Source of the DNA: Symbiodinium natans
Lineage: Eukaryota > Sar > Dinophyceae > Suessiales > Symbiodiniaceae
Length of the DNA stretch: 64,000 nt
Direction of reading: 5' to 3'
Assembly (NCBI GenBank): GCA_905221605.1
Contig: CAJNDS010002626.1
Location: forward strand, 274,315 to 338,314
Shown in pieces: positions 11,245 through 43,980 of this stretch. Position numbers and translations under genes: made by a program. Position 1 is the first letter of the stretch. Each line of letters begins with the position of its first letter. The notes under the pieces are model-generated. The model was not told where the DNA came from and ran no database searches. It saw only the letters and a list, made by a program, of their open reading frames with translations.

Positions 11245-11451
11245 ACCACTTGGGTTCCCCCAACGGGATTGTCCCTCTGTTTGAACTAGGGCGGGCTGGG
11301 ATGGGGGAAAAACTTGTGCTTTGAAAAGTCCTTTGAAAGTTGCTTCTCGCTTCGGATTCTTCAGATGCACACAAGATGGTTTTGCAGCATGCATTGACTT
11401 GTGAAATGTCAGGCCTCGTTGCCTTTGTGGCGCAAGCATAAAATTTTGTTA
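11245..11451 (+). repeat. DIRS-1 repeat A1
   Basis: 207 bp from ACCACTTGGG to AAATTTTGTTA, repeated essentially perfectly at 19502-19708. It abuts interrupted copia integrase code on its left. Confidence 0.9.
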
Positions 11452-11521
11452 GTGAGGGGGAGGGGACCTGCGGCTCATGGACTGTTGGGGATTGCTGGGC
11501 TGATGTGAGCTCTTTTCCGAC

Positions 11522-12034
11522 ATGTCTAATTGGGCTGGACTGCAGAAGATTGATGATGGTCTTTTTGCTGCTGTTTCTGACACGTACAAGAATCTTTTGC
11601 AGTTTGATGGTTCCTTCGAAGATGAAGCTGGGGCTAGATCTACTGTGGAGGAATTTCTTGCTGGAAAGAGGACAGCAGGCGATATCGAAAACATTTCAAA
11701 GGAGCTCTGGGCATGGAGGCAGTCGCGCTTGAAGAGGAGGCCGTCCGAGGTAGTGCTTTTGCAGAGACGCTTACCTGAGTTCGCTGCTAGTGTTCCACGC
11801 TCCCAGAAGGATATCACTGCGGTTTTTGAAGAGGCAGTCAACACCACCCCTGCTGTTGCGCTGTCCCTGCTGAAGCGTGCAATCAGAGCAGCTAGGGCCC
11901 ATGGGGACAAAGAGGAGGTAGAGAACAAGTTGCGTGAGAAGTGGGCCCTCGAGCTTGTCGCCATTATACAGGAGGCAGAGCTGCCTGCTGCAGAGCGGAT
12001 TGCTGCACTGGGCAATGACAATCATTTCTGGTGA
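11522..12034 (+). CDS. DIRS-1 recombinase, N-terminal part
   Basis: A 170-residue helical, charged protein starting MSNWAGLQKIDDGLFAAV. It ends at a UGA, after which plausible protein continues in another frame (GEELLDDVGEKRCEIVREL, 12030-12090), then returns to the first frame at about 12090 (RAWLQGSLGISWP) and runs into the recombinase ORF at 12107. Two compensating frameshifts in one gene fit better than two genes. It would be the DNA-binding N-terminal domain of the recombinase. Confidence 0.6.
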   Translation: MSNWAGLQKIDDGLFAAVSDTYKNLLQFDGSFEDEAGARSTVEEFLAGKRTAGDIENISKELWAWRQSRLKRRPSEVVLLQRRLPEFAASVPRSQKDITAVFEEAVNTTPAVALSLLKRAIRAARAHGDKEEVENKLREKWALELVAIIQEAELPAAERIAALGNDNHFW

Positions 12035-12106
12035 AGAGCTTTTGGACGACGTAGGGGAAAAACGCTGCGAAATCGTGCGAGAGCTTGGAAGCCGGTTAGG
12101 GCTTGG

Positions 12107-13558
12107 TTGCAGGGCTCTTTGGGAATTTCTTGGCCTGTGGATGTTGGAGTGATCTTGAGATATCTTGAGGAGAGAGATGAGATTCACAGGATGGCAAGCC
12201 TTTCACTCTTGGAAGGCGTTGGGATGGTACCGGCTGGCAAACGTCTTAGCGAGGACCCCTTGCTGCTTGAGAGCATCAAGTCTTGGACAGCCGAGCTGGA
12301 AGTCGATCAAGCTGCACCAAAGGCAGCTGCAATGTTGCCTGTTTCAGTCGTGCTAATATGCGAGCTGGTGGTTTGCAGGCCTTTGTACCCACCTGGGTTG
12401 CGATTCATGGCTTTCATTTTGCTGGTCATGGTATGGGCAAGCCTGCGCGCAGATGATATGCAAAACGTCAATCCAGCCAGTGTGAAGCTGAGCCAGGTCG
12501 GACTGAGGTTCATCCTTAGGAAGACGAAGACGAGTGGACCTGGGCGCAAGGTTGGTGAGCTGCATGGGTTCATTTCTCGGGTCGTGGGACTCAGTGGCTT
12601 TGACTGGCTCGGGGAAGGTTTCAAGCTGCTGACTTCTGAACGATTTTCATGGGCGCGAGATTTTCTTTGCCCTTGCTTTACAAATGAGTGGGATGAGCCA
12701 AAGAGAGAATACATGGACGCGGAGGGCCTCGCCTTGCAGTTGAGGCGTTTGCTGAAGGAGTTGCCTACACCGGTGAGGCAAATGGGAACCTGGAAGGTGA
12801 AACGAGAGCTGCTGCTGCCTGGCGACGTCGCAAACTTTTGGACAGGGCACAGTCCTCGTCACTTCGTGGTGAGCATTGCAGCCGCCATCGGGATATCAAA
12901 GGACCGGCGTGATTATCTGGGGCGATGGGCGTATGCTCAACATGGGTCACAGGATTACGTCCTCACTTCGCGTCAGGTGGTCCAGGCGATCCAGACCACT
13001 GTTTGCAAGACACTGCTATTGGGGGGCGATGGAGGCGGTTACATTGAGGAGGAGCTGCTTTGCACTTTAAGGAGTTTTGCTGATGACCTTGGATTGAATG
13101 GCGAGGAGATCGTCGGCGCAAATACGGTGATGCAATGGGATGGACACAAACAGACCTGGTTGCTGGGGGGACAATATCCTGCTTTTGCTGTGAACCCGGA
13201 GAGGGTTCCGATTGCCGAAGGGGAGCTCGAGGCGAAGCTCCCTGGAGAATATGAGGCTTTTGAAGCAGAGCCGGACGAGGACGAGGCGCCGTACTTCTTG
13301 ACTGTCTCTCGGAGAGGGTTCAGACGTTTGCATCTTTCCAAGCGTTGTGCAGTCCGGAGAGAGAGGTGCCTCGAGACCATTCCAGTTTTCCACCTTGGAG
13401 AGGGCATTGCTGATGCGATGTGTAAGCTGTGCAAGCCGCGGGTGGAGTTAGGCGAAGAGTCTTCAACTAGTGGCTCGGAGGACACTGTTGAGGGTGAGCA
13501 GGAAGCTCTTGAGCCAGAGCCTCTCGGTGGAGGCCTTGGCTGGAGGCTTGGGGCATGA
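12107..13558 (+). CDS. DIRS-1 tyrosine recombinase catalytic domain with C-terminal Cys/His module
   Basis: Catalyses strand exchange for integration of the circular DNA copy. Residues fitting the family: an arginine in WASLRADD, a lysine in LRKTKTSG, the HxxR box in GHSPRHF, a tryptophan in LGRWAYAQHG and the nucleophilic tyrosine in SQDYV, all in canonical order. The C-terminal extension holds an acidic linker and a Cys/His module (RRLHLSKRCAV...CKLCKP). The listed start is not an ATG; the gene is probably continuous with 11522-12034 through frameshifts. It precedes gag, unlike most DIRS elements, where the recombinase follows RT. Confidence 0.85.
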   Translation: MQGSLGISWPVDVGVILRYLEERDEIHRMASLSLLEGVGMVPAGKRLSEDPLLLESIKSWTAELEVDQAAPKAAAMLPVSVVLICELVVCRPLYPPGLRFMAFILLVMVWASLRADDMQNVNPASVKLSQVGLRFILRKTKTSGPGRKVGELHGFISRVVGLSGFDWLGEGFKLLTSERFSWARDFLCPCFTNEWDEPKREYMDAEGLALQLRRLLKELPTPVRQMGTWKVKRELLLPGDVANFWTGHSPRHFVVSIAAAIGISKDRRDYLGRWAYAQHGSQDYVLTSRQVVQAIQTTVCKTLLLGGDGGGYIEEELLCTLRSFADDLGLNGEEIVGANTVMQWDGHKQTWLLGGQYPAFAVNPERVPIAEGELEAKLPGEYEAFEAEPDEDEAPYFLTVSRRGFRRLHLSKRCAVRRERCLETIPVFHLGEGIADAMCKLCKPRVELGEESSTSGSEDTVEGEQEALEPEPLGGGLGWRLGA

Positions 13559-13899
13559 TCAAGATCTCTGATTTGCACCTTGGGCTGGAGGCGCCTGACT
13601 CTTGGATTCTTGGTAGGAAGCTCTGCAGGAGGCAGCAGAGCGCAGTGCTCGATTAGAGCAAGACGTGCCGGAAGGAGAGCACGCATTAAAGAGTGAGATT
13701 GCTGGGGAGGGGACAGCATCTAGACGAGCTTGTAGTGCTTGACCTCCTGCAACGGGGTTGCAATCACTGTTGGAGGTGCACTTGTGAGGTTCGTACGCAG
13801 ATTGATGGCTCGAATTTTCCGGGATTTTCTGCTTCTTTCATAGGTCCACTGTGCATGTGCTGAGGTGCGGGGACGCTGTGCTGAGAAGCACCTGGTGCA
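13559..13899 (+). other. spacer between recombinase and gag of DIRS-1
   Basis: No open frame with recognisable motifs. It probably holds the leader of the gag-pol transcript, but no promoter motif is evident. Confidence 0.4.
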
Positions 13900-15273
13900 A
13901 TGGCCGGAGCGGCGCCGGCTCCTGGGCCAGCAGAGTTGCCGACAGGGGTCACCCAGGACCAAGCCCTTGATTTTCTTGATAAGCAGGTAAGTTCTGATCT
14001 GGTGCATATTTTCCAAGAATGCGGAATGCCTTTGGGATTGCAGTATCGATTGGGACAAAACTTCAAATCAGTGAAGCGATTCTCGACATACGCTGACACA
14101 CGGGGCGAAGTGCGCACTGCTTTGAAAGATGATCACCAGTTGGAGGCCACTGACCAGGCGAGCAGAGCTGTCGTTGCAGCAGTAGTTTCAGCCTGGGAGA
14201 CATCGCGCGAGGTCGCCAGCAAGGAGACGGAGTTGAGGGCAGAGGCGCGCATGCTGGGCGTCAGCAGACCAGTGACGCAGACTGAGAAGCAGGCTATGAG
14301 GGTTGCGTATGAGGCAGCCCACGGGATGCTCGAGGAGGCATTCGAGCCTTCCGACGACTACATCTCTGCAAAGCTTGAGGAGGTCGAGAGTGGCGAGATC
14401 ACCGCTAGTGCCCTTTCTGAAGTGACATCCAAGAAGAAGGTGAAGACCATGGGGATACAGACGACAGTGGATACTGGAGGTCATGTCAGGATCGTCAAAC
14501 AGAAGAACAAAGGGGTAATGCCCTCACATACAGAAGAGCTGAGAACGGTGCTGAGAGTTGAGGGCAATATGTGGACATTTTTGGCATCCAAGTACAAGAA
14601 CAAGATCTTTTTCCAAGGCATGGGGCCAGATGCTTGGCTGGGATATGCAAACTACTTGCTTGGAGAACGGGTGTACTTGCTGCAGGTCCCGGTCACCGGG
14701 AAGGGCGGGAAGATGGATCAAATCCCACTGAAACCGCCATGGGTGGTGATTCTCAACTATGAATACGAGTTGAGGAAAGAAGCGATCAAGAGAGCCTTTC
14801 GTGATTCCCGCCCCTTGCGCGAGACCCTTCGGGAGGTGACAGATGATGCACAGTTGAAAGAACAGTATTTCACAGCTCCCATAGCGCTGCAAAACAGAGG
14901 AAAGCGTGGCAGTGATCAATGGGATGGCCAGCACGATGATGGAAAATGGCACCGGGACACCTGGCGAAAAGGAGCTGGCTGGGGCAAAGGCACACCGCGC
15001 AAAGGAGATGACAAAGGACGTGGCGATCAAAAGGGCAAGGACAAGAAAGGAAAGGACCCAAAGGGTCCTGGCAAAGGGAAGCGTGAGAGCGTCACCACCA
15101 CTCGAACGCCAGACGGGAGGTGGATCTGCTTTGACTACTCCGGGCCAGGATGTGATGGAAACTGCGGCATGGTACACTGCTGCATGGTCAAAGGATGCCA
15201 CGGGCCACATCCTACGTGGCAACATTGGCAACAGCATCACTCTGGCAAGACAACGGATGCTCCGAAGCACTGA
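13900..15273 (+). CDS. gag: DIRS-1 gag-like protein with CCCH zinc finger
   Basis: A 457-residue protein starting at an ATG (MAGAAPAPGPAELPTG). The helical N-terminal two thirds is followed by a Lys/Gly-rich basic tail (KGKDKKGKDPKGPGKGK) and a C-terminal Cys/His cluster (CFDYSGPGCDGNCGMVHCC) that fits a CCCH finger rather than the retroviral CCHC knuckle. The DIRS-2 gag has the same plan. The stop is UGA followed by CUC, and the same frame stays open into the pol ORF, suggesting UGA readthrough. Confidence 0.8.
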   Translation: MAGAAPAPGPAELPTGVTQDQALDFLDKQVSSDLVHIFQECGMPLGLQYRLGQNFKSVKRFSTYADTRGEVRTALKDDHQLEATDQASRAVVAAVVSAWETSREVASKETELRAEARMLGVSRPVTQTEKQAMRVAYEAAHGMLEEAFEPSDDYISAKLEEVESGEITASALSEVTSKKKVKTMGIQTTVDTGGHVRIVKQKNKGVMPSHTEELRTVLRVEGNMWTFLASKYKNKIFFQGMGPDAWLGYANYLLGERVYLLQVPVTGKGGKMDQIPLKPPWVVILNYEYELRKEAIKRAFRDSRPLRETLREVTDDAQLKEQYFTAPIALQNRGKRGSDQWDGQHDDGKWHRDTWRKGAGWGKGTPRKGDDKGRGDQKGKDKKGKDPKGPGKGKRESVTTTRTPDGRWICFDYSGPGCDGNCGMVHCCMVKGCHGPHPTWQHWQQHHSGKTTDAPKH

Positions 15274-17592
15274 CTCAGGGTCTTGGTGGGCTTCGGCAGT
15301 CACGGCGCAAACGAGCAGATGCATGTGTGTTTTAAGAATGCAGCACAGAGGACGGGGAGCGAGCTTAAGGTTGGCTTCCTGCTTGATTGCGATGATGATG
15401 CATGGTTTAAACCAGAGGCATGGGATCGCATTTTCACCGAGATTCATGAACATTCATGGGATATTGTTTTGCTTTCGCCGCCTTGCAAGACGTTCAGTCG
15501 TGCAAGAGAGCACCGCAGGACAGGGCGGCATGGGCCTGGTCCTTCCAGGTCGCACACTTATCCTTTTGGTTTTCCTTGGTTGGCAGAGAGGTCGCGTGCT
15601 GCTGTTGATCGAGAAAATTTTTACTTGCGGCAGTCTTTCAACGTAATCAAAGCGGCAATCAAATCGGGCATGGGTTGGCTACTCGTCCACCCAGAGGATC
15701 TGGGTGCTTTACATTCGGGTCAAAGGCCAGCTAGCATTTGGCAACTTGATGAGCTTCGTGCATTTGTGGAAGGTGATGAACATGCGGCAACATGGGCAGT
15801 ACACATGTGCACTTTCGGGGGCGATCTTCCTCACCCCACGAGGCTGGCAACCAATTTAGCAGGCCCTGAGGCGCAGCTCAGATGGCCGCAGTTCGATGCA
15901 ACAGGGTCCTATGTAGGGCCAATTGGCCGGTGCGAGCATTTGCATCATGGTGGGGCAGGCATAGCGCACGATGGAAGTTGGAAGACGGACACACCTCTTC
16001 CGTTGGCCTTCTGTGAACATGTGGTGCAGATGGCATGTGATTGGCAGTTGTCTGGGCGCACTACAGACGACGTCGGCCATCCGGCTGAACAGTTCGCCAC
16101 ATGCTTGCTAGAGCAGTCCGATTCGCGTAAGCTTGGGAAACATGATGGAGAAGCTCTGGCCCGCCTGCTTGAATACGAAGCACCGCATCCGGCAGCAGTG
16201 GCAGATGCGGCCACGGAGCAAAGTGGCGGTAAGGCCTTCTTCGGCGGAGCCTACACTAAGGGTGGCATCACGGGTTTGCGCCGTTCTTGCCGGGTGTTCC
16301 CTCAGTCCCTTAAGTGCCTCACCTTGCTCCTGCGTGATGCCTTCCCCAACAAGCCCTTTAGTTCCCTTGTGGTGTTCAATAACGTCAAGAGTACTATGCA
16401 CAAAGACGTGCACAACGCGCCTTATCCCAACTTGCTTCTTGCCTGGACCACTTTCCAAGATGGGCAGGTTTGGATGGAAAGCAGCCACGGTCATGTCGTG
16501 CGCATGGTTCGCGGCATCCCGCGCAAAGGCGTTCTTCTCCCAGTGGCCCAAGCTCCGCAGGAGCTCCAGGCTCACAACTGCTTCCATCAAACCGAGGCGT
16601 GGACTGGTGATCGAGTTCTCTTAGTTGGATTCACAGTCACCCGCCTTCACTCACTGTCACCGCCCATGCGTGATAACCTCCTCTCTTTGGGCTTCGTCCT
16701 TCCCCCATCTGCTCACCTGCCACAGCAAGGGGGGGAGGGGCTCGCTGATCGGGAGGCCGAAGCGGTGCCGGCGATGGCATTGCAACATGAACTCCACGCT
16801 ACTCAGGAGGGACCATCCTGGAGGCCCCGGGCCCCGTCCTTGGCACCCCTTCAGGAGGGACCATCCTGGAGGCACCTGGTTTGGCTTCCTCGTCTAGGGA
16901 CCCTTCGGTTTGCACCCCTACAGGAGGAACCCTTCTGGAGGCCCCGCATAGCACCCCAACAGGAGGGACCATCCTGCTGGCACCTGAGGCTCCCCTTTCC
17001 GACCAACCCGATGGCGAGGACGTTGGTGACTCCCAAGAGTTTGACCCACGCACATCCCGTTGCAGTGGGCCGGCCTTGCGTTGTCGGCACACACAGGTCC
17101 GGCATGAACTTGTGGATGGATTTGGCTTGTGCTCCCCGGGGAGGTGGCGACCGAAGTCACGTGGGGCATTGGCCTCCGACATCGAGCACAGCCATTCCCT
17201 TAGCATACGCAGGATTCTTGTCAGTGCGCTGCGGGAGGCCATCCCCGACAGGAAGAAAGCTGCCTTCATGCTTGCCACGGGGAGGATGGAGAGCTCACCG
17301 TTTTCCCGCAGCACCATCGCTAAGGTCAGGGAACGGATTGCTGCTTTGTTGCCAGACCCTGAGCAGGCAATGCAGATTCCCCAAGGACAACCTTTCATGT
17401 TGCACATGCTTTCCCAGTCGCTCCGGGTGTTTGGGGATCCTGACTATGCAATTCTGGACCAAGGGAAGGACTCGTTTGCAGAAGGGGTGCCCCTTGGTTG
17501 GGATAAGCCCATCGGCAGGGCTCCTCAGGTGTTCCCGAAGAGGACGCACTTCCGGAAGCTTGACGAGACCGAGTTTGATCCCTCCATGGTGA
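15274..17592 (+). CDS. DIRS-1 pol N-terminal part: C5-methyltransferase-like plus 2OG/Fe(II)-dioxygenase-like domains
   Basis: The frame follows directly after the gag UGA. The methyltransferase-like domain (about 15280-16060) shows LLSPPCKTFSRA with a PPC catalytic motif at 15478-15486, a HPEDLG segment where ENV is expected, and HMCTFGGDLPHPTRLATN, matching the C.fG...KpT.l pattern of C5 DNA methyltransferases. The second domain (about 16230-16690) has MHKDVHN with the HxD pair at 16399-16407, a distal histidine in NCFHQTEAW and an arginine nine residues later (GDRVLLVGFT), the ligand layout of 2-oxoglutarate/Fe(II) dioxygenases and close to the TET/JBP pattern. After about 16730 (a G-rich run) this frame degenerates and the RT frame takes over. 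Domain names are motif-based inference. Confidence 0.72.
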   Translation, partial: LRVLVGFGSHGANEQMHVCFKNAAQRTGSELKVGFLLDCDDDAWFKPEAWDRIFTEIHEHSWDIVLLSPPCKTFSRAREHRRTGRHGPGPSRSHTYPFGFPWLAERSRAAVDRENFYLRQSFNVIKAAIKSGMGWLLVHPEDLGALHSGQRPASIWQLDELRAFVEGDEHAATWAVHMCTFGGDLPHPTRLATNLAGPEAQLRWPQFDATGSYVGPIGRCEHLHHGGAGIAHDGSWKTDTPLPLAFCEHVVQMACDWQLSGRTTDDVGHPAEQFATCLLEQSDSRKLGKHDGEALARLLEYEAPHPAAVADAATEQSGGKAFFGGAYTKGGITGLRRSCRVFPQSLKCLTLLLRDAFPNKPFSSLVVFNNVKSTMHKDVHNAPYPNLLLAWTTFQDGQVWMESSHGHVVRMVRGIPRKGVLLPVAQAPQELQAHNCFHQTEAWTGDRVLLVGFTVTRLHSLSPPMRDNLLSLGFVLPPSAHLPQQGGEGLADREAEAVPAMALQHELHATQEGPSWRPRAPSLAPLQEGPSWRHLVWLPRLGTLRFAPLQEEPFWRPRIAPQQEGPSCWHLRLPFPTNPMARTLVTPKSLTHAHPVAVGRPCVVGTHRSGMNLWMDLACAPRGGGDRSHVGHWPPTSSTAIPLAYAGFLSVRCGRPSPTGRKLPSCLPRGGWRAHRFPAAPSLRSGNGLLLCCQTLSRQCRFPKDNLSCCTCFPSRSGCLGILTMQFWTKGRTRLQKGCPLVGISPSAGLLRCSRRGRTSGSLTRPSLIPPW

Positions 17593-19226
17593 ACTACCGG
17601 TCAGCCGAACTAAATGCTGAGCAGTTGGAAGAGAAGTTTCGTCAAGACGAACGGGAAGGCCTGATGATCTGCACCACGGAAGCTGAGGCTAAGAAGAAAT
17701 ATGGAGAGGACGCTGTGCTGATCGCTGCGATGGGAGCAGTGACCAAAGCTAATGGTGATGTGCGGCCGCTACATGACGGCACCCATGGCATCAACCTAAA
17801 CAACCGGATCGTGATCACAGACAAACTGCAGGTTCCTGGACCAGAAGACCTTCAAGAGGTGGCAGCACGCGTCAAGGAGAGCAAGGAGGCTCCTTTTTCC
17901 CTATGCGCCGACATCAGCCAGGCGCACCGACGCGTAAAGGTGCGGGAGGCCGATTGGCCACGCTTGTCGTGCAAGGCATCCTCGCAATCGCGCGTGCTTT
18001 GGCTAAATTGCGTTGGAACGTTTGGGGTCAGCTCTGCCGCATACTACTGGTCGCGCCTTTTCGGAGCCGTTGGACGGTGGACTTTCCGGGTCCTTTCCTT
18101 GGACCAATTCTACATGTTGATCTACGTGGATGATCTTCACGTCGTGGTGTTTGGCTGCGATAAGTACGATACCCTATGGCTGCTTTTCTTGGCCCTTGAG
18201 GTGATGGGGACTCCTTTCTCTTTCCACAAGTTCAAAGGGGGAGTGGAAGTGGACTACATTGGATATCACCTCAGCTACTTCACGTGGGCAGCTGGCATTT
18301 CGGAGAAGCGGGCATCCTGGATCGTTGAATGGATCGATCGAGTGGAAGCCGACGGGTGGATGGTGTCTGGCAGGCGGCTGGTGGAGTTCACCGGACGTCT
18401 CAACTTTGTGACACGCATGATCACTTGGTTGAAACCTTTCCTGGCACCATTGTTTGCTTGGAACGGGGTGCTCAGCCGCAGCACAGTGGCGCGCCTACCC
18501 GAGATGGTGATGCTAGTCCTTCGATTTTTCCGCCACCAATTTTCATCAGGAGCTCGACTTGATTCTGTGCACATGACCTGGCCAGCGCAACAGAGGCAGG
18601 CATTTCGGACGGATGCTAAGTGCGAGAGGGGGCGCATTGTGTTGGGGGGCTGGTCCTTAGATCATGGGGTTGATACTAGGCAAGCACCGTGGTTTGCTTT
18701 GGAGGTTTTCCCTAATGACTTGCCAGCACTCTTCAAACCTGATGGGTCGTCCGAGTGGGCCTCCACTGCCGCGGAGCTGCTCGGCTCATATGTCGGGCTT
18801 CATGCATTCGGGCATTTGAAGAAATCTGCCGGGCGGGACTCCTTGAAGATGCAGGTGTGCGGTGGAACTGACAACAAAGCCACCCCGGCCATCGCTGCAA
18901 AGGGTTTATCTAACAAGTGGCCCGTGCAAGGGATCCACATGCAGTTGTCGGTTGCCCTTCGTGAAGCTAATAAGGTTTGCAAGCTTGCCTGGAGGCCACG
19001 GGAAGAAAATCAGGATGCCGACGATTTGACTAACTTGAAAACTGAAAACTTTGTTCCTTCAAAAAGGGTGACAGTTGCGTTGAAAGATTTGCAAATGGGA
19101 TTGTTTCACGAGTTGCATGAGCACTACGAATCCTTCAGGGATGAACGAGCAGCCATGTCAGCTGCTAAGAAAATTGAGCCTAAGGCCACTAAGAGGCAGA
19201 AGTTGCTTGACAAAACGGAATGGTAG
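16881..19226 (+). CDS. pol: DIRS-1 reverse transcriptase-RNase H
   Basis: Open from 16791 and shifted by one frame from the preceding pol segment. The start is uncertain and it is probably one polyprotein with the upstream part. It opens with a proline/threonine-rich repeat (PTGGTILEAP copies, 16800-16990). RT follows (about 17740-18400): VRPLHDGTHGINLNN, SLCADISQAHRRV and catalytic YVDD at 18123-18134. RNase H-like sequence (about 18600-19030) includes ELLGSYVGLHAF, GGTDNKATPAI and PREENQDADDLTN. It ends in a basic tail just before B1. RT and RNase H copy element RNA into DNA. Confidence 0.88.
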   Translation: MASSSRDPSVCTPTGGTLLEAPHSTPTGGTILLAPEAPLSDQPDGEDVGDSQEFDPRTSRCSGPALRCRHTQVRHELVDGFGLCSPGRWRPKSRGALASDIEHSHSLSIRRILVSALREAIPDRKKAAFMLATGRMESSPFSRSTIAKVRERIAALLPDPEQAMQIPQGQPFMLHMLSQSLRVFGDPDYAILDQGKDSFAEGVPLGWDKPIGRAPQVFPKRTHFRKLDETEFDPSMVNYRSAELNAEQLEEKFRQDEREGLMICTTEAEAKKKYGEDAVLIAAMGAVTKANGDVRPLHDGTHGINLNNRIVITDKLQVPGPEDLQEVAARVKESKEAPFSLCADISQAHRRVKVREADWPRLSCKASSQSRVLWLNCVGTFGVSSAAYYWSRLFGAVGRWTFRVLSLDQFYMLIYVDDLHVVVFGCDKYDTLWLLFLALEVMGTPFSFHKFKGGVEVDYIGYHLSYFTWAAGISEKRASWIVEWIDRVEADGWMVSGRRLVEFTGRLNFVTRMITWLKPFLAPLFAWNGVLSRSTVARLPEMVMLVLRFFRHQFSSGARLDSVHMTWPAQQRQAFRTDAKCERGRIVLGGWSLDHGVDTRQAPWFALEVFPNDLPALFKPDGSSEWASTAAELLGSYVGLHAFGHLKKSAGRDSLKMQVCGGTDNKATPAIAAKGLSNKWPVQGIHMQLSVALREANKVCKLAWRPREENQDADDLTNLKTENFVPSKRVTVALKDLQMGLFHELHEHYESFRDERAAMSAAKKIEPKATKRQKLLDKTEW

Positions 19227-19268
19227 GTTTGGGTTGGGCTCACTGGCGCGGCATGCTCTGCTAAAGGG

Positions 19269-19374
19269 GGGACGCCTGGAGTATGCCACGCCCGTGGCTG
19301 GCTGTATGTGCCACCAGGCACACCTTCTTGTGCAAGGCCTGTAGGCTGCATGCTGCATCGGTGGGACCCAACAC
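19269..19374 (+). repeat. DIRS-1 repeat B1
   Basis: 106 bp from GGGACGCCTGG to CCCAACAC, repeated at 19803-19908. Confidence 0.88.
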
Positions 19375-19501
19375 ACGCCTTGGAAAAAGTGACGTCCGTT
19401 TCGGAGTGCGCGTGTTACACTTGTTGCAAGGGTTATGTCATGCCGTGCCTTTCCTTTTGAACCCAAGACCCCTTAGCCTTCTGGTTCAAACTTTGGGACA
19501 A
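19375..19501 (+). other. 127-bp spacer between B1 and A2 of DIRS-1
   Basis: Unlike in DIRS-2, B1 and A2 do not abut. The spacer starts ACGCCTTGG, similar to the A start ACCACTTGG, so it may be an alternative terminus or a small rearrangement. Inverted CAAA/TTTG and CCCAAG/CTTGGG words occur across the spacer and A2 start. Confidence 0.5.
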
Positions 19502-19708
19502 ACCACTTGGGTTCCCCCAACGGGATTGTCCCTCTGTTTGAACTAGGGCGGGCTGGGATGGGGGAAAAACTTGTGCTTTGAAAAGTCCTTTGAAAGTTGC
19601 TTCTCGCTTCGGATTCTTCAGATGCACACAAGATGGTTTTGCAGCATGCATTGACTTGTGAAATGTCAGGCCTCGTTGCCTTTGTGGCGCAAGCATAAAA
19701 TTTTGTTA
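19502..19708 (+). repeat. DIRS-1 repeat A2
   Basis: 207-bp copy of A1 (11245-11451). Followed by a 94-bp spacer before B2. Confidence 0.9.
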
Positions 19709-19802
19709 CCCACCCTCTCCGCCCTGAGAGCACAAGGTGCAAGTGCCGGTCTGTAACACTTGAGCAGTGGAAGGATGCCTGACTGTGCCACACCTGTGGC
19801 TT

Positions 19803-19908
19803 GGGACGCCTGGAGTATGCCACGCCCGTGGCTGGCTGTATGTGCCACCAGGCACACCTTCTTGTGCAAGGCCTGTAGGCTGCATGCTGCATCGGTGGGA
19901 CCCAACAC
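19803..19908 (+). repeat. DIRS-1 repeat B2
   Basis: 106-bp copy of B1. Copia-2 integrase code resumes at the next base, so this marks the right edge of the insertion. Confidence 0.88.
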
Positions 19909-30918: not shown

Positions 30919-30942
30919 AACTGGCGATGGAACCCGGGATGC

Positions 30943-31225: not shown

Positions 31226-31230
31226 AATCT

Positions 31231-34986: not shown

Positions 34987-35149
34987 AGAGCGCCTTCTCG
35001 CAAGCGAGACAGCACCTTATTTTCATTTTATACTTTTGCAATTCATGGGTGCATGAATTTTCATGAACATGATTGATTTGTTCACCATGTGAATTTTGAT
35101 CTCTCCGTCGCAGTGTGGCTGTGTGCAGCTCAGAGGATCAAAATTTTGT
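34987..35149 (+). repeat. DIRS-2 repeat A1
   Basis: 163 bp from AGAGCGCCTTC to AAAATTTTGT, identical to 43513-43675. Confidence 0.95.
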
Positions 35150-35584: not shown

Positions 35585-37741
35585 ATGTCCGCGCCCGGCT
35601 CAAGTTCCGCACCGCCCATGTCTGCATCAGCTTCTCAAGGGGGGGAGGTTAGCTGCTTTGACATCGACAGGTTGCTTGTGGAGGCACAGCTTGCTGCAAT
35701 TCCTGACAACATGCCTAAATTCCCTTGGGAAACCGGATCGTTCAAGGCCATCTTTGGTGAGGGAATGGCCGGTGTGTTGTCTCCACCAGTGCTGAGGCAA
35801 CCTTCTCTTGTGCCCATACCTGGGGTTGCCTCCCCTCCGCCGGAACCTGCGCCCGTGCAGAGTGCTTCTGGGAAACGCAAGCATGCGCATTTGTTTCATG
35901 AGTGTTCTGCTAAAGCCTCCAGAGATGTAAATGCTGACAGTGATGAGCACTTGTGGAACATCGCTTTGAGCAAGTGGGTTACTGTGTTCATTTTGTGCGA
36001 GCACCAGGGAAGCACGGGTGCCATGCTTCAGGACAGCTTCTGGTCCGAGGACGGCACTGCTCGGGAAGATATCATCCGTGATGTCTTGGGGTTGAAGGCT
36101 CCAAGAACAGCGTCAAAGAGAGCCAATGACTTGTTGCGTTGTTTCCGGTGGCATGTAGAGCAAGGCAAGTCCCCGTGGCCCTGGAGCATCAAGTCTCTTT
36201 CGTGTTATATCGAGTCACTAAAGGGTACTAAAGGGTATGCAAGTGCCACTGCTACTCTGTTTCAGGCCATCAATTTTGCGCATCATGTGGTCGACATCCC
36301 CTTTAGTGCTGAGATCTTGAGCGACAGGCGCCTTCAGGGCAGGGCGAAGAGGCTGATTGCTGATAGTGGTCCCCTGAAGCAAGCCACAGCATTGCGTGTT
36401 GAGCAAGTCATCCAACTTGAAATTCGAACGACCTCCAGCGAGACTTGTGTGCAAGACAAGTTCCTTTTGGGCGGGATGCTTTTCACGCTATACTCTAGAT
36501 CGAGGTGGTCCGATCATCGCTTGCTTGATTTTATCTTGTTTGACGAATGTGGGGACCCTACTGAAGGTTTTATTGAAGCACAGACCTCCCATCACAAGAC
36601 TAGGAATTGCAAGAAAGCTGCCAAGCGTGCCATGCCACTGGTTGCCCCCATGTTCAGCTTGTCAGGCCATGACTGGGCCAGTGCATGGTACCAAGCAGGC
36701 GTCGAACTTGGGTTTCCGTGGGATGCATCCCCCTTAGGACCTTTGGTGAGGGTTCCGGGTTTTTCAGGGGTCTCTAAGCGGAAATGCAGCAGCGCAGAGG
36801 CGTCAGCCATCCTACGGAGTGCCTTGGAAGTGGATGCTTCTTCAGGGGTATCATCACACTCCCTCAAGGTCACCACTCTGAACTGGTGTGGCAAGAGGGG
36901 TTTGCCCGAGTTCGATTGTTTGATGTTGGGTCACCATGTCACTGGGTCCAAATCGCGTGCGGTCTACTCACGTGAACTTCTCAGCGCACCGCTGCGCTCC
37001 TATGTCGCCACGCTGAAGGAAATCAAAGCAGGGGTGTTCAAACCAGATGCCTCCAGGTCGGGTTGGTTGTCCGACTGCGCCGCTTTTGCACCTTCACATG
37101 CAGACTTTCGTTTTGATAACCCGAAGCGACGTGGGATCCTTGCTAGTGAACCTGCCGTGTCTCCCAGCGATATGTTGGGCCCAGATGCAGGTGCGTGCGC
37201 CCCTCGCTCCCCACAGGAGTTTCCGGAGAGCCCGCTTCTTGCACAGGATGCACCTGGCGAGTTTATGGAAGGTGGAGTTCGGGATCATGCTGATGATGAC
37301 GTTGATGAGACATCCCCTCCCTCCTGGGGGGGTGCCTTGCCTGACAACACTGCCCTGCCCGGTGTTGAGTCTGAGCGCGATGCAGGGGATGCAAGTAGCG
37401 ATGAGTCAGATAGCAGTAGCTCGAGTGACAGCAACGCGTCCTCAGGGCAATCGATTGCCGAGGAGGGCATCCTTCGGAATGCCGGAGCTGCCCAAAGTTT
37501 TGATGTGCCGGGCCCGTTATGGCAGCACAGAGGTTCAAAGATGCTGCACAAGGCGGTGCAAGGCTCGGAGATGACCAAGTGCTCGCGTAGAACGGGTGGG
37601 AATGCCTACCTGTATCTTCCTGAGGGCTCTGTGTCGAAATGGACACGCTGCTCGACATGTTTTCGTGGTGAACTGATCACCTCGAAAGGCGGTATGGTGG
37701 CTGCCTTAGACGCGCTGAGCGCACCCAGAGCATCCACATGA
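35585..37741 (+). CDS. DIRS-2 tyrosine recombinase
   Basis: 718 residues from an ATG. A helical N-terminal domain (about residues 100-270) precedes the catalytic domain: arginine in LYSRSRWSDHRLLD, a lysine-rich strand (SHHKTRNCKKAAK), an HxxK box (SHSLKVTTLNWCG, where HxxR is usual), MLGHHVTGSKSRAVYS with histidine and the nucleophilic tyrosine. After it come an acidic Ser/Asp-rich linker and a C-terminal Cys pair (RCSTC). Compared with DIRS-1 the second arginine is replaced by lysine, seen in some eukaryotic recombinases. It would integrate the element by exchange at AG. It precedes gag, the same unusual order as in DIRS-1. Confidence 0.85.
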   Translation: MSAPGSSSAPPMSASASQGGEVSCFDIDRLLVEAQLAAIPDNMPKFPWETGSFKAIFGEGMAGVLSPPVLRQPSLVPIPGVASPPPEPAPVQSASGKRKHAHLFHECSAKASRDVNADSDEHLWNIALSKWVTVFILCEHQGSTGAMLQDSFWSEDGTAREDIIRDVLGLKAPRTASKRANDLLRCFRWHVEQGKSPWPWSIKSLSCYIESLKGTKGYASATATLFQAINFAHHVVDIPFSAEILSDRRLQGRAKRLIADSGPLKQATALRVEQVIQLEIRTTSSETCVQDKFLLGGMLFTLYSRSRWSDHRLLDFILFDECGDPTEGFIEAQTSHHKTRNCKKAAKRAMPLVAPMFSLSGHDWASAWYQAGVELGFPWDASPLGPLVRVPGFSGVSKRKCSSAEASAILRSALEVDASSGVSSHSLKVTTLNWCGKRGLPEFDCLMLGHHVTGSKSRAVYSRELLSAPLRSYVATLKEIKAGVFKPDASRSGWLSDCAAFAPSHADFRFDNPKRRGILASEPAVSPSDMLGPDAGACAPRSPQEFPESPLLAQDAPGEFMEGGVRDHADDDVDETSPPSWGGALPDNTALPGVESERDAGDASSDESDSSSSSDSNASSGQSIAEEGILRNAGAAQSFDVPGPLWQHRGSKMLHKAVQGSEMTKCSRRTGGNAYLYLPEGSVSKWTRCSTCFRGELITSKGGMVAALDALSAPRAST

Positions 37742-38038
37742 TGGTGTGGAACGAGGGGAGCCGATGCAATTTTGTTTTCTGAATGTGGCTGAACGCAGCT
37801 AAAGAAACTCGTGTGCGAGTCGCTTGCATTTGATCGTGCTTGGATTTGATATATGCCGTCCACTTTGAGTGCACTCGCGTGTGGTGGTGTGCAGCCGAGT
37901 CTTGACAGTGATGTTTGTGGATTTGGTTTAGGAACGCATTACACTTGTGCTGCCTGTTATGAACTGATACAAACCACCTGGATTGGACTGCTTGCTCAGC
38001 GTGCATCTTCATAAGGCATTTTGCCTCAAGACAGCAAC
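37742..38038 (+). other. spacer between recombinase and gag of DIRS-2
   Basis: About 300 bp without a plausible frame. Likely leader for gag-pol; no promoter motif recognised. Confidence 0.4.
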
Positions 38039-39256
38039 ATGGCGGCCACTTCCGTGTTGGCATCGACGCCTGCTTTGGAGAAGCAATGTGAAAAGGTCGG
38101 CCTCTCTGATGAATGGACCAAGGCGATGATCGCTGCGCAAGTTGACACCTTGTCCAAGGTCTCCTATGCAGTCAGCTTACCAGGCACGCCCGCGACTGAC
38201 ACCAACATCGAGGACTTTGCTGGCAAACTTCGACCAGGTGTTGCTCTCTCTTTGGGCGACAATGCAGCACTTAAGCGCTTGGTCTTTGAAGCTCAGACAC
38301 TTTGCATCGCCGAGCTTCGGAGTTCGGTGCAGGTTGGTGAAGATGCTCCACGCAAGCTGCCGGCTGCAGAACGTGCTCTGCGGATAGAGCAGCAAGCAGC
38401 TCGCTTGAAGGGACTGCCTCTGGCCAAAGGTGCATGGCAATGTGCGCACAGCCTCTACGATCGTTTTGCTCACATGAGAGAGACCGAAGAGCTTCGCTTT
38501 GTCCCACCTGATGAATGCATCACCCGGGATCAGGAGTTGGCCGGCAGCAAGGCACCGAAGTCTGTGCAGCTGGATGCAAGCAAGTCGGGCCTCATCGTGA
38601 AGGATGAGGAAATCACCAATACAATGAACATCACCTCAGATCACGAGCTTTACCTGAGTTTCATGAGGCGCGCCTTGGCCATGGATCTCGTGGGCCTCGC
38701 CAGCTTTGATGTGATGCAGAAGTGGATCGAGCGTCTGTTCGATGTGATGAACCAGGATCCACCTCCAAACTTCTCCCGGGTCTCTCGTGCCCAGGTCCTT
38801 CGTGCGGATCGCCAAGTCTTCGTCGAGCTGGCCCGTAGAGCCAATGGAGGGCTGAAAGCCCTCGCCGATGGCTCGCTGCCACTGGATGCAGAGTTTCGCA
38901 ATTTGCCGGGCAACACTGAGATCATGTACTTCTTGCTGCCGACACCGGAGAAGGGCAAGGGCAAAGGCAAAGGCAAGGGAGACAAGCGCAAGCATTCGGG
39001 CGATGGCGATGAAGGTGGCGACAAGAAGAAGGCCAAGACCACTCGCGATCCCGTGCCCAAGGAGCTTCAGGGTTGCCATAGCAGGACTCCCAAGAATAAG
39101 CCGATTTGTTTCAACTATAACTTGGGCAAGTGCAAAAAGGGCAAAGCCTGCAAGTTCGAGCATGTGTGTTGCAGACCCAATTGCTATGGCAAGCACCCCT
39201 TCTCCCAGTGCCCGAAAGCCAATGAAGCTGCTGACGTTGCTACTTCTGCTGAGTGA
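38039..39256 (+). CDS. gag: DIRS-2 gag-like protein with CCCH zinc finger
   Basis: About 405 residues from the ATG at 38039 (MAATSVLASTPAL). The helical body ends in a basic Gly/Lys repeat (KGKGKGKGKGDKRK) and a CCCH finger, CFNYNLGKCKKGKACKFEH, followed by CCRPNCYGKHPFSQC. It matches the DIRS-1 gag plan. It ends UGA-CUA and the same frame runs straight into pol; UGA-CUA is a well-known leaky stop context in eukaryotes, so a gag-pol fusion by readthrough is likely. Confidence 0.8.
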   Translation: MAATSVLASTPALEKQCEKVGLSDEWTKAMIAAQVDTLSKVSYAVSLPGTPATDTNIEDFAGKLRPGVALSLGDNAALKRLVFEAQTLCIAELRSSVQVGEDAPRKLPAAERALRIEQQAARLKGLPLAKGAWQCAHSLYDRFAHMRETEELRFVPPDECITRDQELAGSKAPKSVQLDASKSGLIVKDEEITNTMNITSDHELYLSFMRRALAMDLVGLASFDVMQKWIERLFDVMNQDPPPNFSRVSRAQVLRADRQVFVELARRANGGLKALADGSLPLDAEFRNLPGNTEIMYFLLPTPEKGKGKGKGKGDKRKHSGDGDEGGDKKKAKTTRDPVPKELQGCHSRTPKNKPICFNYNLGKCKKGKACKFEHVCCRPNCYGKHPFSQCPKANEAADVATSAE

Positions 39257-42200
39257 CTATCAGCAGACCTGTGCACAGGCGACCTTGTGGCTGTCGCTGT
39301 TCCTACATCGTCCACAGATGATGTCAATTTTCCTTGTTCTGCCGTTGACCGTGCTTCGTTGCCTGCTGATTTTGATGTGCAAAGCCAGGTGCCTCGGCTT
39401 GTTAAACCCGTCACGCAATGTGTGGGCGAGACTCCGCGAGGTTTTTGCCTTGAGGTCTTTGCTAAACATGCCCAATTCACGGCTGCAGTGCGTCGTGCTT
39501 TGCCTTGTTCCTTTGGGGTGGGTTACGGGTGTTCTGCCACATCACGTGCCCCCATCGTTCATGCCGATCTCTTGAGCCCTGCAGGGCTTGCGCTGTGTGC
39601 CTCATGGGCACGTGAGGAACTGTGCTTGTGGGTGCACATTCGGTGTCCATCTACTGTCTTCCCGATTGCACACAAAGCCCACTTAAGCCCTTTGGGTGAT
39701 GATGCTTCCGCTGTGTTGTCTTTGACCCGCCAACTCATTAAACACTGCGACGACACCTCTACCCCTTGGTCCCTTGAGTGTCGTGAGCGATCTCTGTTTT
39801 GGCAAGATGGGTGGGCCAGCTCCCTGCCGTCCCTTACTGTCAACATGTGCCAGTTTGGCCATATGCACCGCTCGCCTGTCAGGTTGGCCACTCGTCATCC
39901 GGAAGCATTCCGTCATTTGGCTATTCCATGTCAGCATGTGCATGTGTCCACTGCCACAACCACCAATCGTGTGCCTCCAGAGGCTGTTGCTGCCTTTTAT
40001 GATGCTGTGGGGACTGCCATTCTCGGGTTCTTGCGGTTCCCGCCCCTCGCTCCCGGCCCCACTCCCTTGCATTTGGCACAGGTGGCTGCCGGCTTGCAGC
40101 CCCGACGTTCGCACCTTTGCCTGGTGCCTGAGTTTAAGTGCATTGCCAATGTTCGCCTCCCGGAGCTGCCCCCTCTTCAGGACGGCAAACTGAAGCACGA
40201 GCTGGTCGTGGGTGACGTGTGCGTGCCTGCAGGATCCAAGCACTTACTCCCTGGTTCTCAACGGGGGAAGGATGGCCAAGGAGCAAGTGCAGCAGTGGGG
40301 GGATCCGATTCTCCCTTCTGTGGACCTTCCCTTCCTCACCCTAAGTTAACTACGGCCTCGACGTCTGCGGCCCACTCCTTTTCCCCTAAGCTCTCTAAGC
40401 TGCCCATGGTCACGAGTTCTGAGACCGGGCGCCCTAACCCACAGAAGGTGAGTGCTGCATCGTGTGTGGACACAAATCAGGATGTTTTCTCGCATGAAGC
40501 TGAGCTGGCTGCCAGCCGTTTGGGCGATGTGCCCACACGGGAGGAGCTCTTGAGCATATTTGCTTTGCATGATGCTGACCCTTCTAAACGCATGGCCGGG
40601 ATTCGCGCGAGCGAAAAATCTTGGTCATCAGGTGCTTATGCCATGGGAGGCTGTGTCGGCGTCCGAAAGAATGCTTCCATGTTCCCTGTGTTCACCCGAG
40701 CACTGGTCCGGTTCCTCAGGCATCAGATCCCCGATGCCAGGTTTTCATGCGTTGCTATCTTTTGCGATATGTTACAGGGCATGCACAAAGATATGTGCAA
40801 TCAAGAGGGTACACTCAACTATGGGGTTGCACTTTCGGACTTTTCGGAAGGGTTTGTGTGGGCTCACGACCCGGCGGGCAAAGTTCACAAGCACACGCCA
40901 TCAGGTAAGCTGCCGGGGGTGTTGCACGACATTGCAAAAGCCCCGGTGCGCTTTGATGCGAGAAAGTTTCATTGCGTCATGCCGTGGCATGGACAAAGAG
41001 TCGTGGTGATTGGCTACACACCGCAAAGAGGTTGTGCCCTCAGTGCCAAAGAGGTTCGTTATCTGCTTAGCTTAGGCTTTCCGTTGCCGTGGGTCGACAC
41101 GCCGTCTCCTACTGTGCCTCCAGTCCACGATGCACCTGTCGAGCAACGCTTGGAAAATGTCGCCGACTCTGGTCCTGTGCACTTTAAGCTACCTTGTGCT
41201 TCTGCGGCTGCATGCGATACCCACTTGTACACCTTCGGTGTTTACCACTCTGAAGCCGAGTTCGTCCGCAAGGCCGTGCAGGTGGGGCATCCGAGGAGCC
41301 TCTATGGTAGCTTGCCCCAAGCCATGGAGGAGTGTATCGATGCGTTGCTTGTCATGCCTGAGGCTTCAGTTGTCACTAAGCGTGCGGCATGGCTTGCGCA
41401 TTGGACGGCTCGTGCCAAGGCCATCCAGGAGAACCCCGATCCTGATTGGCACATCCAAGATCCTGCAATGCGCGCTATCCTTGGACGAAAGAGGCTGCAG
41501 CTGCTTGATGAGATCCTTTTATCGGAGGGTTACGGCGATTGCACACTAGCTAGGGACATGCACCATGGTTTTGACTTAGTGGGAGTGGCGCCGCCTTCTG
41601 GTGTGCTGCCTGGCAAGGTCACCCCTGCTTCTCTTGAGCCTGAGGCCCTTAGTGCCAATGCGTGTCGTGCCAATGATGCCTTGCGTGCAAGTTTGCGTTC
41701 TTGTGGCGATCTGGAGCTCGATGAGAAGCTTTGGGAGAAGACCCTGCTGGAGGTCGAACAAGGATGGTTGCAGGGACCGCTCGAGTGGTCTGACTTAGGC
41801 CCGGGGGAGATAGCATCACCCCGCTTTCCTTTGTTGCAGAATGGCAAAGTGCGCCCGATCGACGACTACTCTCGATCTGGTGTCAATAGTTGCGTAACCA
41901 CACTTGAGCAGCCAACCGTGGACACTGCCGACGTGGCAGCCGCCATGTTCAGCAAACTCTCGAACGGCTTGTTGCGCAAGGGGAGGTCTGGTGCTCTCCT
42001 AGGTAGGTCTTACGACTTGACATCCGCATATCGACAGCTATGTGTGTCGAGGGAGTCGTCACGCTTTGCCATAGTGGCAGTGTTCTGCCCAAAGGATGGG
42101 AAATCATACCTATTTCGCCAGCCTTGCCTACCATTTGGGTCGCGTGCATCAGTCAATGGTTTCATTAGGTGCTCGAGGTGCATCCAGTGGATCGCACTCC

Positions 42201-43222
42201 GGTGCTTGCTTGTGCCGCTGACGTCCTATTACGACGACTTCATATCTGCGTCAACATGCACTCTTGCTGCCAACACCGACACGACCATGGCGATGCTGTT
42301 TCGCCTATTGGGCTGGCAGTATGATGAGGTCGGTCCAAAGGCTGACGTTTTTAGTGACCGGGTTGAAGCCCTCGGAGTGGCCTTTGATCTTTCCGAGACA
42401 TGTTCCGGTGTGGTCATCGTGGACAACACCCTCAGAAGGAAAGATGCTCTAGACAGCCTAGTTAGCGAAGCACTTGCAAGGGGGACCCTCAATCATTCTC
42501 AATCGCTCGAGATGCGCGGCAAGCTGGCCTTCGCTGATGCACAGGTCCTCGGTCACTCGGGGAAATTTGCTCTGAAGTTGCTGTCTGCGCATACCCATGC
42601 GATTCCTTTCAAGACGCGCATTGCTGATGACTTGAGCCGCGCTCTGAAGTACTTGAGACAAAGAATCGTTGAGGGCTCTCCCCGGCGTGTGTTACCAACT
42701 GCCAAGGACACGTGGTTCCTTTTTACCGATGCATGTTTCCACGACGCTGGTGATGGTGGTTTAGGCGGGGTGCTGGTGTCTTCCCTAGGTTCGGTGAAGT
42801 CGTGGTATTGCCTTCCTTTGTCAGCCGATGACATCCAGCCTCTCATTTCCCACACAGCCCGCACCGGGATTGGCGAACTCGAGACAATGGCGACCTTACT
42901 TGGCATCCAGCTATGGAGGGGCCATCTACGGAGCACCAACGTGGTAGCTTTCAATGACAACGAAGGTGCCAAGTTCGCCTTGGTCAAGGGTTATTCCAAA
43001 TCCATGTCAGTCACCAGGATTTGCCACGTGTGTGCGACTGTTTGTGAGACCGACATGATCATGCCTTGGTTCTGTCGTGTTCCCTCAGCATCCAACATTG
43101 CCGATCCGCCTTCACGCAGTATGTCCTGCGATGCCTTACCCGAAACCTTCAAGCTGCCCTGCGATCAGGTGCGGCGCGCGTACCTTAGCTTGAGGGGTCG
43201 AGTCTGCAGTATGCTCTCGTAG
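39257..43222 (+). CDS. pol: DIRS-2 pol: methyltransferase-like, dioxygenase-like, RT and RNase H in one ORF
   Basis: Open directly after the gag UGA; the first GTG at 39287 gives 1,311 codons. A methyltransferase-like region (about 39420-40000) has FCLEVFAKHAQF (motif I), WVHIRCPSTVF where PC is expected (CP, so probably inactive), LECRERSLFW and NMCQFGHMHRSPVRLAT. The dioxygenase-like region (about 40620-41090) has MHKDMCN (HxD at 40784-40792), a distal histidine in KFHCVMPWHG and arginine in QRVVVIGYT, with spacing identical to DIRS-1. RT (about 41800-42260) has PRFPLLQNGKVRPIDDYS and catalytic YYDD at 42227-42238. RNase H (about 42710-43130) has FLFTDACFHD, GELETMATLL, AFNDNEGAKFA and NIADPPSR. 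One intact frame makes this the best reference for DIRS-1. Confidence 0.88.
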   Translation, partial: LSADLCTGDLVAVAVPTSSTDDVNFPCSAVDRASLPADFDVQSQVPRLVKPVTQCVGETPRGFCLEVFAKHAQFTAAVRRALPCSFGVGYGCSATSRAPIVHADLLSPAGLALCASWAREELCLWVHIRCPSTVFPIAHKAHLSPLGDDASAVLSLTRQLIKHCDDTSTPWSLECRERSLFWQDGWASSLPSLTVNMCQFGHMHRSPVRLATRHPEAFRHLAIPCQHVHVSTATTTNRVPPEAVAAFYDAVGTAILGFLRFPPLAPGPTPLHLAQVAAGLQPRRSHLCLVPEFKCIANVRLPELPPLQDGKLKHELVVGDVCVPAGSKHLLPGSQRGKDGQGASAAVGGSDSPFCGPSLPHPKLTTASTSAAHSFSPKLSKLPMVTSSETGRPNPQKVSAASCVDTNQDVFSHEAELAASRLGDVPTREELLSIFALHDADPSKRMAGIRASEKSWSSGAYAMGGCVGVRKNASMFPVFTRALVRFLRHQIPDARFSCVAIFCDMLQGMHKDMCNQEGTLNYGVALSDFSEGFVWAHDPAGKVHKHTPSGKLPGVLHDIAKAPVRFDARKFHCVMPWHGQRVVVIGYTPQRGCALSAKEVRYLLSLGFPLPWVDTPSPTVPPVHDAPVEQRLENVADSGPVHFKLPCASAAACDTHLYTFGVYHSEAEFVRKAVQVGHPRSLYGSLPQAMEECIDALLVMPEASVVTKRAAWLAHWTARAKAIQENPDPDWHIQDPAMRAILGRKRLQLLDEILLSEGYGDCTLARDMHHGFDLVGVAPPSGVLPGKVTPASLEPEALSANACRANDALRASLRSCGDLELDEKLWEKTLLEVEQGWLQGPLEWSDLGPGEIASPRFPLLQNGKVRPIDDYSRSGVNSCVTTLEQPTVDTADVAAAMFSKLSNGLLRKGRSGALLGRSYDLTSAYRQLCVSRESSRFAIVAVFCPKDGKSYLFRQPCLPFGSRASVNGFIRCSRCIQWIALRCLLVPLTSYYDDFISASTCTLAANTDTTMAMLFRLLGWQYDEVGPKADVFSDRVEALGVAFDLSETCSGVVIVDNTLRRKDALDSLVSEALARGTLNHSQSLEMRGKLAFADAQVLGHSGKFALKLLSAHTHAIPFKTRIADDLSRALKYLRQRIVEGSPRRVLPTAKDTWFLFTDACFHDAGDGGLGGVLVSSLGSVKSWYCLPLSADDIQPLISHTARTGIGELETMATLLGIQLWRGHLRSTNVVAFNDNEGAKFALVKGYSKSMSVTRICHVCATVCETDMIMPWFCRVPSASNIADPPSRSMSCDALPETFKLPCDQVRRAYLSLRGRVCSMLS

Positions 43223-43228
43223 CCTGGA

Positions 43229-43514
43229 TGGGGGTGTAGGTGGCAACTCGAGCGACTGCGCTCTCTGGCAGCAGAGATTTTGGGAGTGCCCACTTTCTCT
43301 TGCTATATGCAAGCACTCTTCACCGTGCCACGCCCCCGTCTGTGTAAAAAGAGAAGGGTTGTCCGAGTGATTGCATGCTTTCATTTCATGTTCTTGTCTC
43401 TCACTCTTTTGCTGGGGGATGTGATGTTTTATCTTATTGCTTCCGTGTTTTTAGTTGATCGACAACTTGGCGATCTAAACTCTGGTGTGCCTTCCCAAGT
43501 ATACCGAAAATAAG
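43229..43514 (+). repeat. DIRS-2 repeat B1
   Basis: 286 bp from TGGGGGTGTAGG to CCGAAAATAAG, starting 7 bases after the pol stop; copy at 43695-43980. Confidence 0.95.
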
Positions 43515-43675
43515 AGCGCCTTCTCGCAAGCGAGACAGCACCTTATTTTCATTTTATACTTTTGCAATTCATGGGTGCATGAATTTTCATGAACATGATT
43601 GATTTGTTCACCATGTGAATTTTGATCTCTCCGTCGCAGTGTGGCTGTGTGCAGCTCAGAGGATCAAAATTTTGT
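43513..43675 (+). repeat. DIRS-2 repeat A2
   Basis: 163-bp copy of A1. It shares AG (43513-43514) with the end of B1. Confidence 0.95.
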
Positions 43676-43694
43676 CCCGCCCGCCCTCCCTGAT

Positions 43695-43980
43695 TGGGGG
43701 TGTAGGTGGCAACTCGAGCGACTGCGCTCTCTGGCAGCAGAGATTTTGGGAGTGCCCACTTTCTCTTGCTATATGCAAGCACTCTTCACCGTGCCACGCC
43801 CCCGTCTGTGTAAAAAGAGAAGGGTTGTCCGAGTGATTGCATGCTTTCATTTCATGTTCTTGTCTCTCACTCTTTTGCTGGGGGATGTGATGTTTTATCT
43901 TATTGCTTCCGTGTTTTTAGTTGATCGACAACTTGGCGATCTAAACTCTGGTGTGCCTTCCCAAGTATACCGAAAATAAG
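43695..43980 (+). repeat. DIRS-2 repeat B2
   Basis: 286-bp copy of B1 ending at the host junction; LINE 3' sequence resumes at 43981. Confidence 0.95.

Follow-up and report, generated by a model that had tools for sequence, protein, structure and literature searches.

What is an oxidase-like domain doing inside the Pol protein of a dinoflagellate retrotransposon? The question is raised by an open reading frame (ORF) at 15274-17592 of the window, a 64,000-nucleotide stretch of Symbiodinium natans DNA (GenBank assembly GCA_905221605.1, contig CAJNDS010002626.1, positions 274,315 to 338,314, forward strand). The ORF belongs to a retroelement, here called element 1, and encodes a methyltransferase-like region first and then an oxidase region. 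A sequence-only reading had proposed a TET/JBP-like dioxygenase joined to a methyltransferase-like domain in a tyrosine-recombinase retrotransposon of the DIRS-1 kind. We find a domain with a TET-like predicted fold and a conserved site that evolves under selection. The same oxidase occurs in many other retrotransposons of two quite different kinds in this genome.

Fold, active site and selection of the oxidase domain

The best PDB matches of the AlphaFold model (predicted local distance difference test score 91.4) are members of the 2-oxoglutarate (2OG)/Fe(II) dioxygenase superfamily, and the domain is predicted to adopt their double-stranded beta-helix fold. The best structural match of the isolated domain is NgTET1 of Naegleria (2.5 Å over 131 residues), yet the identity is 14%. 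To our knowledge, NgTET1 is not part of a Pol protein. AlkB, ABH2, ABH3, ALKBH5 and FTO are also close structural matches, and every AlkB entry scores under NgTET1. Nucleic-acid oxidases make up nearly all of the best 50 VIA rows obtained with the isolated domain; no PHD or P4H protein is among them, an absence that excludes neither. What is supported of the proposed TET/JBP-like dioxygenase is a dioxygenase fold, the closest solved matches being nucleic-acid oxidases with a TET-like one first; the cut-off of PF12851 (Tet_JBP) is missed.

The window ORF had no informative match in sequence searches of Pfam, PHROGs and the PDB; NCBIfam was equally unhelpful, and PDB profile searches with alignments A2 and A3 returned chance matches. 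The cut-off of PF13640, a 2OG/Fe(II) dioxygenase profile, is reached by one of 16 relatives (L068, 27.0 against 27 bits) and not by the window domain. PF12851 has no match in the S. natans genome, but control genomes also have none, so the result is uninformative on a host TET gene. Among viral contigs, 12 pattern matches yielded no relatives by tblastn. The viral structure library was non-discriminating, with phage and giant-virus 2OG proteins, viral methyltransferases and plant-virus replicases mixed.

The motifs first picked out from the letters proved exact in position: PPC (C71), HxD (H376 and D378), the distal H438, and R447 nine residues further on. In alignment A3, of 16 oxidase domains with a mean column identity of 29%, all four oxidase-site residues are among the 13 invariant columns, which is more than chance. 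The predicted facial triad and 2OG-binding arginine are conserved as in the 2OG/Fe(II) dioxygenase superfamily. Across 36 homologous oxidase-bearing proteins, several of them truncated, 32 have the first H of HxD, the rest showing P, R, Q or a gap; 34 have its D, with gaps in the other 2; 26 have the distal H, against 8 gaps, one I and one A; and 27 have the arginine, against 8 gaps and one V. The 70 aligned own-genome rows, which represent 68 loci with some fetched twice and about 56 distinct places by hand count, show zero substitutions at the four residues and gaps only (2, 2, 4 and 2). At two loci, L009 and L010, part of the oxidase domain is lost through an internal deletion.

Within families, the ratio of nonsynonymous to synonymous substitution rates (dN/dS) of the oxidase is 0.19, 0.19, 0.20, 0.11, 0.11 and 0.14, with non-independent pairs pooled; it is undefined in one family (no differences) and 0 in one pair (two synonymous changes). 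Of the segregating changes, 52 are synonymous and 35 are nonsynonymous (0.22 per site; one-sided binomial test, 5e-12), counted in those 33 of 38 copies that share one length (five dropped), unaligned and with transition bias ignored. Stop codons were seen in 3/150 and 0/150 scored matches of two genome searches, whose match counts are lower bounds and whose lists overlap. Both selection tests are crude, yet taken with the fold they make a dead domain hard to sustain.

The methyltransferase-like neighbour and the spread of both domains

A DNA methyltransferase (DNMT)-like domain does adjoin the oxidase, as proposed. In 21 oxidase-bearing relatives motif IV reads PPC (17), PPG (3) or PPS (1), and the position of the ENV-like Glu of motif VI holds E (11), V (9) or L (1). 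The comparison with PF00145 put forward in the sequence-only reading failed to place the domain: 1 of 24 members matches (E 0.13), under the curated cut-off. A PDB profile search with alignment A1 gave DNMT2 at E 3.1. The strict pattern PPx..SRA is present in 26 of 56 own-genome ORFs; the remaining 30 are no proof of absence, because the pattern misses PPCGTASLAR-type and differently placed domains. Methyltransferase-type relatives without the oxidase (P0065, P0068, P0071, P0072, P0076, P0080 and P0092) carry PF14216 in precomputed annotation, a possible further cargo enzyme.

A pair peculiar to this one element was considered, but it recurs in others. Both domains are present in 23 of the 36 oxidase-bearing proteins and also in copia, and they co-occur in most families fetched, in three domain orders. 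A rule that the methyltransferase always precedes the oxidase was rejected, as it follows in L011-L022, L035, L046, L062, L063 and L065; copia elements lacking it, considered from L067, were likewise rejected, as L075 shows one. Locus C868 (L075:3083-8000, L067:3-4355) encodes a Ty1/copia polyprotein in which the methyltransferase-like domain precedes the integrase, and the oxidase stands between the latter and the reverse transcriptase (RT). It has the layout of that superfamily, with RVT_2 (E 1.6e-10, above cut-off) after the integrase (rve, E 0.0012, below cut-off) in one ORF. Its terminal direct repeats (219/212 bp, 89.6% identity) adjoin TTTAGGG-like repeats. A giant ORF of 4,751 residues (L068, C2501) carries the oxidase together with matches to Torus and CCCH zinc fingers and, below cut-off, to RVT_2, with features at residues 649-768 and 1171-1352 of the fetched part. 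A 303-residue ORF (L034:1253-2161, C1424) encodes the oxidase alone, has near-identical matches in at least three further contigs and is possibly a domesticated or separate gene.

The window itself holds a second, distinct element (element 2, 34987-43980), whose oxidase is intact (E 2e-68 against the oxidase profile) and 37% identical to the copia oxidase. In a small tree it groups with both copia oxidases (support 0.93). No similarity is detectable between the RTs of the two window elements, yet the oxidase of element 2 groups with those of copia; therefore the oxidase probably moved between element classes. With the same domain found beside RTs that lack detectable similarity, the cargo itself appears to travel from one retrotransposon to another.

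Candidate reactions

We hold it an even call that the Pol oxidase is a genuine, selected domain of TET/AlkB-type nucleic-acid-oxidising fold that, beside a DNMT-like domain, oxidises a pyrimidine methyl group in element DNA and so alters silencing marks. Of this, the predicted fold, the conserved site, the selection, the recurrence in two retrotransposon superfamilies and the association with a methyltransferase-like domain in three orders are observed, whereas the nucleic-acid substrate, the pyrimidine chemistry, the action on element DNA and the effect on silencing are inferred. The most likely reaction would be thymine to 5-hydroxymethyluracil (5hmU) or 5-methylcytosine (5mC) to 5-hydroxymethylcytosine (5hmC). 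The target would be the element's own complementary DNA (cDNA) or a newly integrated copy; as part of Pol, the oxidase should be present where cDNA is made. The copy would then carry, or lose, the modified bases that let the host identify repeats and silence them, and camouflage, demethylation or self-recognition may result. 5hmU is a known feature of dinoflagellate DNA. Thymine oxidation would be attractive in such an organism: multimapping (repeat-type) reads were enriched about two-fold in a Breviolum 5hmU pull-down (PMC11071213), and thymine is also a substrate of the Naegleria TET-like enzyme (PMC12344493). The other candidate substrate is 5mC, which may come from the element's own or the host's methyltransferase.

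Several observations weigh against this reading. TET2, AlkB, ABH2, FTO and 6n1f differ from NgTET1 by no more than about 1.5 Z units, PF12851 matches 5 of 16 relatives below its cut-off (best E 0.021, 14.5 against 34.9 bits), and it is the fold neighbours that point to a nucleic-acid substrate. In several families the flanks have dN/dS values of 0.56-0.99, in part owing to short or badly aligned stretches. Writer-like activity is doubtful despite the PPC, because the ENV-like Glu, in a motif of our own assignment, is Val in the window (VHPEDLG) and four of the 21 relatives have Gly or Ser where the catalytic Cys should be. With the methyltransferase site degenerate in some families, writer and oxidase need not act in sequence. 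Neither L034 nor the fetched part of the L068 ORF, 3,245 residues, yielded a methyltransferase, and the corresponding region of element 2 has no significant match to the methyltransferase profile (E 4). Between elements 1 and 2, the recombinase ORFs do not resemble each other (best E 0.44) and the RTs have no detectable similarity (best E 0.039).

Could the domain instead be an AlkB-type demethylase, stripping N6-methyladenosine (m6A) or alkyl groups from element RNA or cDNA? The AlkB-type enzymes are close in structure, and an orchid Ty3/Gypsy AlkB with m6A demethylase activity in vitro is a retrotransposon precedent (PMC9289625). We nevertheless consider this unlikely. ALKBH5 has R277 and R283 six apart, and N193 and Y195 before HxD (PMC9289625), whereas alignment A3 has one invariant arginine after the distal His and no N-x-Y before HxD, and NgTET1 outscores every AlkB entry. 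The fold and the single conserved arginine would favor base-methyl oxidation. That the domain hydroxylates a protein in the manner of PHD/P4H enzymes, with Gag, Pol or a protein of the host as its target, is improbable, given nucleic-acid oxidases in nearly all of the best 50 rows and the recurrent pairing with a DNMT-like domain.

A coupled cassette, in which the methyltransferase-like domain methylates cDNA cytosine and the oxidase converts it to 5hmC or further, would resemble phage sets that combine C5-methyltransferases with TET/JBP enzymes (PMC12730594), and the co-occurrence in 23 of 36 proteins and in copia, in three orders, speaks for it. We regard it as very unlikely, with PPG or PPS in 4/21 relatives, V or L for the ENV-like Glu in 10/21, and the results for element 2, L034 and the fetched part of L068. 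Because the methyltransferase site is degenerate in several families and the oxidase site is not, the oxidase is not generally reliant on a methyltransferase product. Least probable is a captured host domain with no present catalytic role: some copies are truncated and functions are assigned by prediction, but zero site substitutions in 70 rows, dN/dS of 0.11-0.20 and stops in just 3/150 and 0/150 matches stand against it.

The two window elements and their published relatives

Table 1. Positions of the features of elements 1 and 2 within the window
Feature	Position	Strand	Basis or remark
Element 1 repeat A1	11245..11451	+	207 nt, 100% identical to A2
Element 1 tyrosine-recombinase-like ORF	12035..13558	+	ORF call; motif HSPRHF..GRW..DY by eye
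Element 1 gag-like ORF, Cys/His-rich end	13885..15273	+	ORF call
Methyltransferase-like domain	15274..16080	+	PPC C71 at 15484-15486; VHPEDLG at residues 138-144
2OG/Fe(II) dioxygenase domain, predicted TET-like fold	16204..16740	+	AlphaFold score 91.4; PDB matches; profile
HxD (H376-K-D378), predicted iron ligands H376 and D378	16399..16407	+	invariant in alignment A3
Distal H438, predicted iron ligand	16585..16587	+	invariant in alignment A3
R447, predicted 2OG-binding arginine	16612..16614	+	invariant in alignment A3
Element 1 RT/RNase H-like ORF (IYVDDL)	16791..19226	+	similarity to relatives
Minisatellite linker, 36-nt units, holds frame change	16795..16986	+	repeat and ORF comparison
Element 1 repeat B1	19269..19374	+	106 nt, 100% identical to B2
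Element 1 repeat A2	19502..19708	+	207 nt, 100% identical to A1
Element 1 repeat B2	19803..19908	+	106 nt; element end, inside copia integrase frame
Element 2 repeat A1	34987..35149	+	163 nt, 100% identical to 43513-43675
Element 2 recombinase-like ORF	35585..37741	+	position and weak motif only
Element 2 gag-like ORF, CCCH finger	38021..39256	+	finger match below cut-off
Element 2 Pol ORF: degenerate methyltransferase-like region, oxidase 40583-41122, RT with YYDD	39257..43222	+	
Element 2 repeat B1	43223..43514	+	292 nt, 99% identical to B2
Element 2 repeat A2	43513..43675	+	163 nt, 100% identical to A1
Element 2 repeat B2	43689..43980	+	292 nt, 99% identical to B1

Element 1 (Table 1) is a retroelement with a recombinase-like ORF, as had been proposed, but it is not DIRS-1 proper, because its repeats are split direct (A1-coding-B1-A2-B2) and no inverted pair of at least 30 nt is present in 9000-24000. 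Its recombinase-like ORF has no profile match and no PDB sequence match; by the motif rules for tyrosine recombinases, the motif seen by eye may mark such an enzyme. The gag-like ORF has no Pfam match. The RT is in another frame than the methyltransferase-oxidase part, the switch lying near 16750-16806, and in several relatives (e.g. P0006, P0007, P0018) all three form a single ORF. The RT ORF shares 67-70% identity with the C-terminal regions of P0002, P0005, P0006 and P0007, and those of the first three match RVT_1 below cut-off. At least seven own-genome copies of this family have an open frame of 559 to 1,336 residues. The outer flanks of element 1, once joined, restore a copia frame, hence a precise insertion into a copia element, and a recent one, since the A and B repeats are identical. 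By eye, the C-terminal end of the interrupted copia ORF (~22750-23371) is methyltransferase-like (IEVFCSTDSAL, IASPCTAGCS at 22907, QEWP); the methyltransferase profile has no match there.

Element 2 has the same A-coding-B-A-B repeats, a layout expected of split-direct-repeat recombinase retrotransposons (SymbioDIRS/PAT/Ngaro type), and at least eight further close copies in the genome (at least nine with itself). Its recombinase-like ORF has no profile match. Upstream, at 30900-34150, there are large short-tandem-repeat blocks with units of 8, 14, 22, 37 and ~116 nt.

DIRS1 has inverted repeats (PMC3266345), unlike element 1. SymbioDIRS-Dnmt3 elements are likewise from dinoflagellates and have the repeat order A-coding-B-A-B; they encode a recombinase in an ORF of its own and have a DNMT inside Pol, in two reported domain orders (PMC5890265). 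Their DNMT was detected with PF00145, whose cut-off the window domain misses; the accessible part of that paper mentions no dioxygenase, and 'TET' and 'hydroxymethyl' are absent from its main text (PMC5890265). Fungal DNA transposons share a TET/JBP oxidase cargo with intact HxD...H, but the carriers are DNA transposons and Helitrons with the oxidase as a separate gene, whereas the window oxidase is fused into Pol; the accessible text of this 2025 survey of fungal elements reports no TET/JBP in retrotransposons (PMC12730594). Orchid Ty3/Gypsy elements share a retrotransposon-borne 2OG dioxygenase, there active in vitro. That enzyme is AlkBH5-like, however, with both arginines and N-x-Y, in a separate ORF of a Gypsy element, and close to host genes (PMC9289625).

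With DNMTs in Symbiodinium DIRS elements, AlkB in orchid Gypsy and TET/JBP in fungal transposons all published, the capture of nucleic-acid-modifying enzymes by mobile elements is already known. A Pol-fused TET-like oxidase that recurs with a methyltransferase-like domain in two retrotransposon superfamilies was not found in the literature searched, which did not include the work of Li et al. (2024) on the 5hmU enzyme of dinoflagellates. Judged by that literature, a TET-like oxidase would here be described from retrotransposons for the first time. A repeat-encoded oxidase would make it directly testable, with a small domain, which party places modified bases on transposons and which one profits from them. 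It is possible, though we doubt it, that at least two retrotransposon superfamilies have exchanged and kept a cassette of DNMT-like writer and TET-like oxidase. If so, retroelement-encoded enzymes would lay a sizeable share of the hydroxymethylated bases of such genomes, on their own DNA.
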